NCBI GenBank assembly: GCA_003558065.1
Contig: PWMU01000066.1
Span: 1 to 37,614, forward strand
Length of the DNA: 37,614 bases
Direction of reading: 5' to 3'
Source: Opitutia bacterium
Lineage (GTDB): Bacteria; Verrucomicrobiota; Verrucomicrobiia; Opitutales; T3Sed10-336
Part shown: piece by piece, positions 31,013-36,765 of the stretch
Layout of the letters: the number at the start of each line of letters is the position of its first letter
Numbering within the stretch: position 1 is the first letter of the stretch
Program-made: the position numbers and the translations under genes
Notes under the pieces: model-generated
The model's input: only the letters and a program-made list of their open reading frames with translations
What the model was told of the DNA's origin: nothing
The model's database searches: none

Positions 31013-31088
31013 AGTAACGATTGGCTTTGGACGCCCCGATTCACTTTCAAAAAAGGAAGTGACGGGGCGAAGCCTGCACGGATTGGTG

Positions 31089-31130
31089 TTCGTTACTCGT
31101 TATTCGTTATTCGTGATTCGTTGTTCGTTA
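31089..31130 (+). repeat. Heptamer array A1 (TTCGTTA-type)
   Basis: Six consecutive 7-mers with the core TCGTTA/TCGTGA (variation at 2-3 positions). The same words reappear as reverse complement at 31345-31403. Confidence 0.75.
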
Positions 31131-31181
31131 CCGGGGAGAAGCAGTGCGGCAAGCCCATCACAAGTCACGAATCCTCCCCAC

Positions 31182-31252
31182 CACAGATTTCACAGAGAAC
31201 ACAGATTAAATCCAGAGGCCTCGTATCCGTGCCCATCCGAGCAATCTGTGGT
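31182..31252. repeat. CACAGATT-type imperfect palindrome
   Basis: CACAGATTTCACAGAG and a following ACACAGATT face AATCTGTGGTT at 31241-31252. A partial copy, AACCACAGATTTCCCGG, is at about 33155 and a CGGATTTCACGG variant is near 36590. This looks like a dispersed hairpin-forming element. Confidence 0.5.
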
Positions 31253-31344
31253 TCAATAATTCCGGGAAACACCAGACCCCGGATCGCCAACGAACCCGGA
31301 AAAAATGATTTTGCCCCTCAATGATTTTGCCAATTCTCTTCCTC

Positions 31345-31403
31345 AACGAATCCCGAATCCCGAATCACGAGCAACGAGCAACGAACAACGAATAACGAGC
31401 AAC
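31345..31403 (-). repeat. Heptamer array A2 (AACGARN-type), inverted relative to A1
   Basis: Eight 7-mers AACGAAT, CCCGAAT (twice), CACGAGC, AACGAGC, AACGAAC, AACGAAT, AACGAGC. They end 33 nt before the GTG start of the first membrane paralog. Confidence 0.75.
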
Positions 31404-31435
31404 CAAAAAATTAGAGCTTGTCCGCGTCGTCCTAA

Positions 31436-32319: not shown

Positions 32320-32943
32320 ATGGAGTTTAACCTTTGGCCTCTTGTAGGCTCGATCTTATTACTTGGGACGCCTTCCTACCTGTTTTTTACCAGTCATGTC
32401 CGCCGCCGGGTCACTGAAGCCCAGCACTCCGGAGGCTTTCCCCTCCCGGGGATATTCCTTCCGTGGCAGAACTGGCTGGATCTTGTGCGAGCGGCGGCCG
32501 GGGCCTACCTGCTTTTCCACCATACTTTCGAACTCGATAGGGAGCTGGAATCCTTTTACGAGGAATTCGGCTGGATGGCCGGCGTTTTCGCGGTTGCGAT
32601 TATGCTGAACGTGTATTACCGGCGCCGGCACCTCTACTGCCTGGCGCCGGTGTTTTACATCACCGGCATCAGTTTGGGGCTCTTTCTGGAGAACTGGTGG
32701 ATGGTGCTCTACGGGGTGGTGGCCGGGCTGGTCTTCGGGCGGATCATCAACCTGCCGGAGGCGTTTTTCATCGTCATGGGCCTGGTTATCGGGGCTTTTG
32801 GGTATTTTTTCAAAGGGGGGGTCAGCCTCGATCTGCTCCTGCTCTGCGCCCTGACCATCCTGCCGATCGTTTACGCCTTCGCCACCAAGCGGGGGCTGGT
32901 GGTCGCGGCTTCGCGCACCCACACCATCGAAGAGGAATGGTAG
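32320..32943 (+). CDS. Tandem membrane paralog 2, unknown family
   Basis: 207 residues. Aligned with the previous gene over most of its length: 'LLLGTPSYLFF', 'WQNWLDLVRAAAGAYLL', 'HLYCLAPVFYITGISLGL', 'WWMVLYGVVAGLVFGRIINL' and 'EAFFIVMGLVIGAFGYFFKG'. Similarity is strong within helices and weak in the loops, so the duplication is not recent. Topology is like paralog 1, with about 6 helices. Function unknown. The C-terminal 'ASRTHTIEEEW' tail is not shared. ATG 32320-32322 is chosen; ribosome-site signal is weak. It is followed 8 nt later by the long heptamer array B1. Confidence 0.7.
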   Translation: MEFNLWPLVGSILLLGTPSYLFFTSHVRRRVTEAQHSGGFPLPGIFLPWQNWLDLVRAAAGAYLLFHHTFELDRELESFYEEFGWMAGVFAVAIMLNVYYRRRHLYCLAPVFYITGISLGLFLENWWMVLYGVVAGLVFGRIINLPEAFFIVMGLVIGAFGYFFKGGVSLDLLLLCALTILPIVYAFATKRGLVVAASRTHTIEEEW

Positions 32944-32950
32944 GGGGATT

Positions 32951-33048
32951 CGTTACTCGTTATCCGTTACTCGTTATTCGTTATCCGTTACTCGTTATTC
33001 GTTATCCGTTACTCGTTATTCGTTATCCGTTACGCGTGATTCGTGATT
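32951..33048 (+). repeat. Heptamer array B1 (CGTTAYN), 14 units with 21-bp higher order
   Basis: Fourteen consecutive 7-mers. Unit endings cycle ATC-ACT-ATT (CGTTATC, CGTTACT, CGTTATT) three times, giving a 21-bp higher-order unit, before decaying to CGTTACG and two CGTGATT. It sits 8 nt past the stop of membrane paralog 2. Confidence 0.85.
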
Positions 33049-33287
33049 CATGTTGGCAGAGTTGCCGTGACACGGACCTGCCTCGGTGCAAAGGTACACC
33101 AGTGCGCCAAACCGATTACCAACAACCAACAACGAGTAAAGAATCCTCCCAACCACAGATTTCCCGGATGTACACAGATCAGAGGAGGGGAAGGGAGAAT
33201 TAGGGGATTTTGGATTGGATTCCTGCGCTTCTCGAAAAACGGAGAAACGGAAATTTATTGGGCAGTGCGCCAGTGTGCCAAACCGAT

Positions 33288-33413
33288 TACGAATAGCGAA
33301 CAACGAGTAACGAGTAACGAGTAACGAGTAACGAGTAACGAATAACGAATAACGAGTAACGAACAACGAGTAACGAATAACGAATAACGAATAACGAGTA
33401 ACGAATAACGACC
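33288..33413 (-). repeat. Heptamer array B2 (AACGAGT/AACGAAT), 18 units
   Basis: Eighteen 7-mers in the orientation opposite to B1, mostly AACGAGT and AACGAAT, ending at 33413, four bases before the cysQ ATG. The cysQ translation-initiation region is thus composed of repeat sequence, with no Shine-Dalgarno match. Confidence 0.85.
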
Positions 33414-33417
33414 CCCC

Positions 33418-34308
33418 ATGCTCAATGCGATCACACAAATCGCCCGCGAAGCCGGCGTTGAAATATTGAAGTTTTACGGCGGCGAGCTGGACGTGGAAGC
33501 CAAGGCGGACGATTCCCCGTTAACCCAGGCGGACCGCGTGGCGCACACGTTGATCTGCGGCAGGCTGCGGGAGCTCGACGGAGGCATACCGGTCCTTTCG
33601 GAGGAATCCGACGAGGCCGAGATCCGTGACCGGAAAACCTGGAAGCGCTTCTGGCTGGTGGACCCTCTGGACGGGACCAAGGAGTTCATCAAGCAGACCG
33701 GGGAGTTCACCGTGAATATCGCCCTGATAGAGGAGGGAGTCCCGGTGATGGGAGTCATTCACGTGCCGGTGCGCGGCTGGACCTATTTCGCCGAGAAAGG
33801 CACGGGCGCCTGGAAGCGGATCGGGGACAAACCGAAAGAACCGATCCGCGTGCGTGCCGCGCCGGTGGCAAAGGATGAAGGAAAAATGATGAAGGATGCG
33901 GGCGAATCCCCCCCGGCAGACGCGAACCACCCATCGCGAATCACCGATCACGAATCATCGATCACGGCTAGCGAATCACGCCTCGCCCTCGTCGCGAGCC
34001 GCGACCACGCGGGGCCGATGGTGAAACAATTGCTGGAACTGTTCCCCGGTGCGGATGCCATGAGTATGGGCAGCTCCTTGAAGTTCTGCCTGGTGGCGGA
34101 GGGCGAGGCCGACCTTTACCTGCGCGACGCGCCCACCATGGAATGGGACGTCGCGGCCGCCCAGTCCATCGTGGAAGCGGCGGGCGGCCGGGTCCTGACT
34201 CTCGAGAAGGCGCCGCTGCGTTACAACAAAGACGACTTGCGCAACCCGGCACTGCTTACCGCGGGAGATTCCGCGTTGGCCGCCCGGGTTTTGGATTCAC
34301 TTACATAA
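33418..34308 (+). CDS. cysQ: 3'(2'),5'-bisphosphate nucleotidase with heptamer-encoded insertion
   Basis: 296 residues; CysQ proteins are usually about 245-270. Metal and phosphate motifs are intact: 'LSEESDEAEIRDR' (Glu pair), 'VDPLDGTKEFIKQTGEFTVN' (82-90 DPLDGTKEF), and 'MEWDVAAAQSIVEAAGG' near 242-258. The enzyme hydrolyses PAP/PAPS to AMP/APS, relieving inhibition during sulfate activation. Residues about 152-187, between 'IRVRAAPV' and 'RLALVASRDHAG', are not family sequence; they are encoded by a 105-nt in-frame repeat block at 33873-33977. The start codon lies 4 nt after array B2. GHMP kinase follows after 21 nt. Confidence 0.92.
   Translation: MLNAITQIAREAGVEILKFYGGELDVEAKADDSPLTQADRVAHTLICGRLRELDGGIPVLSEESDEAEIRDRKTWKRFWLVDPLDGTKEFIKQTGEFTVNIALIEEGVPVMGVIHVPVRGWTYFAEKGTGAWKRIGDKPKEPIRVRAAPVAKDEGKMMKDAGESPPADANHPSRITDHESSITASESRLALVASRDHAGPMVKQLLELFPGADAMSMGSSLKFCLVAEGEADLYLRDAPTMEWDVAAAQSIVEAAGGRVLTLEKAPLRYNKDDLRNPALLTAGDSALAARVLDSLT
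33873..33977 (+). repeat. In-frame heptamer block inside cysQ
   Basis: The block is GGATGAA-GGAAAAA-TGATGAA-GGATGCG (33873-33900), a 21-nt link, then eight 7-mers (33922-33977) such as GCGAATC, ACCGATC and ACGAATC. Total 105 nt = 15 x 7 = 35 codons, so the reading frame is kept. The resulting peptide is polar, rich in D, E, S and H, fitting a surface loop. Confidence 0.75.
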
Positions 34309-36649: not shown

Positions 36650-36737
36650 AATTTTCGCCCCCGCCAAAACTGAAGAGCGAAGGGGGTAAAGAACGGTAAC
36701 CGTTCCGAAGGAAATCAGGGAAGGAGAAACCAAGCAC

Positions 36738-36758
36738 CACGAACCACGAACCACGAAC
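36738..36758 (-). repeat. Heptamer array upstream of the UXS start, CACGAAC type
   Basis: Three perfect 7-mers CACGAAC at 36738-36758, ending 7 nt before the ATG at 36766. As with cysQ, the repeat occupies the initiation region. The nearest purine-rich sequence, GGAAGGAGAAA, is ~35 nt upstream. Confidence 0.6.
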
Positions 36759-36765
36759 CGATAGA

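Follow-up and report, generated by a model that had tools for sequence, protein, structure and literature searches.

A tandem heptamer insert in cysQ of an Opitutia bacterium, probably captured from the genome's own repeat DNA

The window analysed here is a stretch of 37,614 nucleotides that forms contig C16 in the 4.13-Mb assembly of an Opitutia bacterium, for which completeness is 97% and contamination 1.3%. The host is related to verrucomicrobial bacteria from sediments, presumably those of soda lakes. The window carries a cysQ gene whose open reading frame runs uninterrupted, with no stop, through a block of short repeats (Table 1). The encoded protein scores 298.4 bits against TIGR01331, compared to a curated cut-off of 228.8, and the model matches it separately at each side of the insert. 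In addition, the catalytic CysQ motifs EE (E62 E63), DPLDGT (D82-T87) and WD (W243 D244) are invariant in the alignment, and on both score and conserved motifs the protein is assigned to the TIGR01331 family. An earlier note on this DNA had described a repeat block at 33873-33977 within an intact CysQ gene, and the coordinates, the 296-residue frame and the TIGR01331 match all agree with that description.

Table 1. Coordinates of the cysQ gene, its insert and the heptamer arrays in the window.
Feature	Position	Strand	Remarks
cysQ, 3'(2'),5'-bisphosphate nucleotidase, 296 aa, open across the insert	33418..34308	+	TIGR01331, 298 bits; best PDB chain 3b8b
Insert block 1, four GGATGAA-type units (GGATGAA, GGAAAAA, TGATGAA, GGATGCG)	33873..33900	+	Weak statistics of its own; similar repeat in relatives
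21-nt link GGCGAATCCCCCCCGGCAGAC	33901..33921	+	No significant match to the G001 or G003 loops
Insert block 2, eight GCGAATC/ACCGATC-type units (GCGAACC, ACCCATC, GCGAATC, ACCGATC, ACGAATC, ATCGATC, ACGGCTA, GCGAATC) plus ACG, stop-free orientation	33922..33980	+	Periodicity; log-odds 71.9
Left arm of inverted array pair (TTCGTTA read on the plus strand), just 3' of the upstream gene's stop codon	32948..33049	-	
Right arm of inverted array pair (ACGAGTA/ACGAATA), to 6 bases before the cysQ start	33289..33411	+	
Intergenic heptamer array, cysQ-spacer family	31089..31130	-	
Intergenic heptamer array, cysQ-spacer family, inverted partner of 31089-31130	31347..31403	+	
Short intergenic heptamer array (AACCACG)	36728..36759	+	

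Over positions 33873-33977, identity at lag 7 is 0.48 as compared to 0.26 in dinucleotide shuffles, none of which reaches the observed value (0/5000). The in-frame segment has a combined 7/14/21 signal of 0.51, which is reached by 0/3000 codon shuffles, and the remaining lags between 4 and 12 stay at 0.24-0.28. The 7-nt signal of the cysQ insert is the highest among 849 long ORFs sampled from the genome, which comprise 0.90 Mb of inner coding sequence. The statistical support sits in block 2, and the 7-mer make-up proposed earlier is thus strongly borne out for the eight units of this right block; the four GGATGAA-type units are weak when taken alone, being matched by 48/5000 shuffles at lag 7 and by 100/1000 when all lags are allowed. 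Within block 1, GGAAAAA occupies the position at which the TGA of the unit would be read in frame. Because 7 nt do not make up a whole number of codons, the period cannot stem from selection on a protein repeat, and the SRITDHE and SSITASE heptads of the protein are due to the underlying DNA repeat. The units are degenerate, with no two adjacent ones identical. No second full copy of the 105-nt insert is present in the genome, which holds only short heptamer matches to it, and no duplicated target site was found at the insert, where a flank identity of 70% is too low for junctions or target-site duplications to be read. The 21-nt link may be old loop sequence or a repeat end; its similarity to the loops of G001 (AGESPPADA versus AGDTPAAG) and G003 is not significant (p values of 0.29 and 0.58, respectively).

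Comparison with homologues, proposed earlier as a check and made here with one genome per species, revealed that the insert is missing from the aligned CysQ of the congeners G001 and G002 and of the family members G003, G005 and G007, and also from 12 CysQ proteins of a named collection, two of which are those of G001 and G002. Among the 53 genomes searched, clear CysQ proteins of family members break the query alignment at the insert. The stretch from RVR to VASRD comprises 45 residues here and 14 in the nearest relatives, G001 and G003, so close homologues do not carry an equally long loop of non-repeat codons. The net gain over these two is 31 codons (93 nt), which upholds the earlier proposal of an in-frame insertion and corrects its size, put at 35 codons. 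The frame had been said to survive because 15 x 7 = 105; however, what counts is solely that the net length is divisible by 3 and that no stop is introduced. The length of the CysQ loop varies even without repeats, and the distant Bacteroides CysQ 3b8b has a longer natural loop near the insert site, therefore the site tolerates length change. As judged from these alignments, the repeat loop of CysQ is specific to this lineage.

The gene around the insert has not decayed visibly. Comparison with G001 gives a dN of 0.164 and a dS of 1.357, and a relative-rate comparison counts 17 versus 15 unique changes, with no acceleration. These values leave the flanks without a sign of decay and indicate that cysQ is under purifying selection. 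An AlphaFold2 model built with 13 sequences has a mean pLDDT of 86.7 and a pTM of 0.84, and its top fold match in the PDB is again CysQ 3b8b. In this model, the insert is located between strands 141-143 and 190-192, and the block means of pLDDT across residues 151-190 are 53, 50, 40 and 57, as opposed to mostly >85 elsewhere in the protein. Accordingly, the disordered loop that the earlier note had suggested looking for is predicted (block means of 40-57) on a confidently modelled fold, and the data fit a working enzyme that carries a floppy extra loop.

To place the insert within its genome, periodic loci were recorded in stretches amounting to 1.22 Mb of the bacterium's own sequence. With a signal of at least 0.5, 43 loci have a 7-nt periodicity, as compared to 1-10 loci for lags 5, 8, 10, 11 and 13, and recognisable genes contain hardly any of the heptamer loci, whose main units are ACGAATA, ACGAGTA, ACGAATC and ACCGATA. 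After training on arrays that leave out cysQ, a 6-mer log-odds model assigns block 2 a score of 71.9; the next segment in a likely real gene reaches 44.6, a ligase repeat (see below) being set aside. The right block thus uses the vocabulary of the arrays, in line with the earlier remark that the insert resembles the intergenic arrays in style. The best long match of this block, with 88% identity across 33 nt, is L040:7405-7437. Given the 7-nt period and the common unit vocabulary, block 2 is classed as a member of the dispersed ACGAATN/ACCGATN family. The pattern ACGARTMACGARTMACGART has 83 matches in this genome, 1 in G001 and 0 in 51 other relatives, and elsewhere in the phylum it gives at most 4 matches, in 8 scattered genomes among 388; by these counts, the heptamer family is expanded in this species. 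The GGATGAA-type repeat is found in most family members, and a counterpart of block 1, AAGGATGAAGGCAGAAGGATGAAGGAGG, lies inside the loop of a DUF4838 protein of G003; it is mainly from these relatives that block 1 gains indirect support as repeat-derived.

The family is also present directly upstream of cysQ, where an inverted array pair with a mosaic core fills the spacer at 32944-33417. This spacer measures 474 bp, whereas that of G001 has 11 bp and G003 has a stop-start overlap in its place. The core (window 33050-33300) is made up of various other short dispersed repeats and is 83% identical over 47 nt to window 31160-31206. Arrays often form such inverted pairs, with a TTCGTTA-type array on the left and a TAACGAA-type array on the right, 75-260 bp apart, which gives them a MITE-like outline. 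Examples are found at window 32944-33417 and 31073-31426, and at L042:15526-16097, L041:5118-5355 and L151:13461-13700, and the pairs apparently occupy entire intergenic spaces, reaching the neighbouring start or stop codons. At cysQ, the array stops 6 bases (CCCCCC) 5' of the start codon (window 33400-33420), leaving no space for a Shine-Dalgarno sequence, and arrays directly adjoin an ATG at several other loci too. Runs of C, examined as a one-sided signal of array ends, are enriched on both sides (8 right and 7 left of 23, against a background of 7.5%) and therefore have no polarity, and this candidate was dropped. The arrays also yield long spurious ORFs (LVIRYPL.../VTRYSLF..., window 32697-33203 and 33016-33438), which gene callers may annotate as proteins. 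Octamer arrays of the AAACCGAG/AAACAGAC type and the GACGCACC type occur alongside the heptamers (L090:1599-1695, L090:213-286, L079:219-298).

The cysQ insert has parallels in other genes and in the species of its relatives, as far as periodicity in the sequences identifies them. On contig C26, an AMP-binding (acyl-CoA-ligase-like) ligase has 88 residues where G001 has 7, and this 7-nt periodic segment includes GGTTATCGGTTATCGGTTATCGG. The same ligase loop in G002 is made of other heptamers (0/3000 shuffles), and so are the loops of the adjoining DUF4838 gene in G002 and G003 (0/3000 shuffles each). The DUF4838 loop of G000 is weakly periodic (42/3000 shuffles), and the ligase loops of G001 and G003 have no significant periodicity. 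Furthermore, two paralogous glycosyltransferases of G002 carry heptamer loops at an equivalent site, with signals of 0.52 and 0.58. One paralogue is in frame throughout its loop; in the other (L210:1341-1580), the frame changes within an array that is open in both frames, which agrees with a 7-nt unit, as the gain or loss of one unit shifts the frame. This frame-split gene is either a pseudogene or a phase-variable gene. A lower-threshold scan of the 849 long ORFs found no general excess at lag 7 (87 versus 57-72 at other lags), and heptamer inserts in genes are therefore rare. Several arrays that span ORFs (L138:2434, L136:3668, L158) were discarded, as they are located 5' of the probable start codon or belong to a different frame. 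At L045:7520-13472 on C26, the neighbouring AMP-binding ligase, DUF4838 and glycosyltransferase genes all have repeat-rich or variable loops, and STEDS and GVDG stretches are common to the ligase and DUF4838 loops.

At the level of sequence, block 2 is demonstrably of repeat origin. With a probability of roughly 0.77, cysQ captured heptamer repeat DNA that was then kept as a stop-free, frame-neutral segment in a permissive loop. The genome's own heptamer DNA, mainly of the ACGAATC/ACCGATC family after a few GGATGAA-type units, would have entered at a length-variable surface loop of CysQ in the ancestor of the species, after its split from the known congeners, and would have drifted afterwards. 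As for the route, we infer capture of existing repeat DNA, which might have proceeded by template switching, illegitimate recombination or a short mobile repeat. For the movement of the repeats in general, transposition of array-bounded elements, template switching and slippage are all conceivable. Because 7 and 3 are coprime, the three frames of a perfect heptamer array are either all open or all closed: forward ACGAATC has no stop, and forward ACGAATA has TAA in every frame. Insertions can therefore persist in genes only as a stop-free variant or orientation, and survival would also require a net length divisible by 3 and a tolerant loop. CysQ, with its 31 added codons, would have passed these filters and would remain a working enzyme with a loop predicted to be disordered. 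Units ending in C make up 7/8 of block 2 as compared to 48/186 in the sampled arrays, where 136 end in A; this bias agrees with a stop-free filter but would equally result from a donor array of the C type.

The earlier note went further and presented the repeat as mobile or expanding and as domesticated in the form of a protein loop. The degenerate units, without identical neighbours, suggest instead that the cysQ copy is now frozen, and a neutral, tolerated loop accounts for all of the data without domestication for a use, so that the loop presumably has no function. More tentatively, and with odds that we would place below even, heptamer satellites might be a recurrent source of new disordered loops in this family, with distinct heptamer families entering, from species to species, the same permissive loops in several enzymes, and the stop-free, three-frame-open geometry acting as the filter. 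In regular arrays, such as that of the G002 glycosyltransferase paralogue, copy number would then set the gene on or off.

Among the other explanations, the one that comes closest holds that a seed present by chance within cysQ grew into the repeat through replication slippage, with no import of repeat DNA. In many bacteria, slippage favours units of seven nucleotides (PMC4679880), and growth in place would sit well with the finding of neither a donor copy nor a duplicated target site. Nevertheless, the insert joins units of two types and shares its vocabulary with the dispersed arrays, and in other genes the loops at the same sites contain several distinct heptamer families, all of which makes slippage from a chance seed unlikely. 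An ordinary low-complexity or variable loop with a periodicity arising by chance would draw on the variable loop length across CysQ, but its probability is next to nil: the shuffles (0/5000 and 0/3000) never reproduce the signal, no lag other than 7 and its multiples is conspicuous, and the cysQ signal is the strongest in 0.9 Mb of coding DNA. For block 2, chance periodicity is refuted.

The loop might also be a regulatory or phase-variable device, in which copy number switches or tunes CysQ in the manner of neuO. The proven precedent of neuO speaks for such a device, and so does the G002 glycosyltransferase paralogue split between two frames at an array open in both; however, slippage is expected to be rare in cysQ because it has no identical neighbouring units, CysQ is a housekeeping enzyme, and no variant copy number was observed with one genome per species, which leaves this explanation very improbable. 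Capture of existing heptamer DNA remains the preferred reading.

Several known systems resemble the cysQ insert in part, and the earlier description of such an event as rarely documented is too strong in view of the Rickettsia palindromic elements (RPE), neuO and the heptamers of Beggiatoaceae. RPE are in-frame repeat insertions in protein genes (Ogata et al. 2000; PMC3767692). They are similar in being dispersed intergenic repeats that also occur in genes with the frame unbroken, and in that orthologues carry different elements at the same sites, which is also the case for the ligase and DUF4838 loops here; they are, however, palindromic elements of 100-150 bp, and the cysQ insert is a degenerate tandem heptamer that does not have this structure. 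The poly-psi domain of neuO, in a prophage of E. coli K1, is encoded by an AAGACTC heptanucleotide VNTR and has a disordered product (PMC3046976). Both genes share a coding heptanucleotide array in which three units make one 7-residue repeat, and a disordered part, which is predicted in the case of cysQ. In contrast, the neuO array is N-terminal, perfect and hypervariable, with a proven effect on activity, whereas the cysQ insert is internal and degenerate, and it lacks the perfect, slippable units of a neuO-type VNTR, having no identical adjacent ones.

TAACTGA heptamers in Candidatus Maribeggiatoa (Beggiatoaceae) and cyanobacteria (MacGregor 2015; PMC4679880) are likewise dispersed, intergenic and found beside start codons, and they occur rarely in ORFs, being open in one orientation only. 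They differ in their unit, and their in-ORF cases mostly concern protein ends or hypothetical proteins; the cysQ insert is located in a loop in the middle of a conserved enzyme and could be compared with congeners. The GGGAATC heptameric repeats of Xanthomonas and Nostoc (PMC4692102), together with tandem heptanucleotides of Calothrix, are similarly intergenic and under-represented in genes; the GGGAATC repeats differ in forming G-quadruplexes, and the accessible part of the source describes no in-frame gene insertion compared with relatives. Enterobacterial repeat units also occur inside genes (PMC2759123). The rule that follows from the coprimality of 7 and 3 predicts which repeats can enter genes, and the origin of new bacterial protein loops could be tested by counting across a family with species-specific repeats. 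The present locus provides a lineage-specific case in which a conserved enzyme has taken up non-coding satellite DNA, and orthologues without it are available for comparison. The locus differs from the precedents in that the insert is a degenerate heptamer mosaic within an internal loop, that the enzyme concerned has a conserved housekeeping role and that the orthologues of congeners lack the insert.
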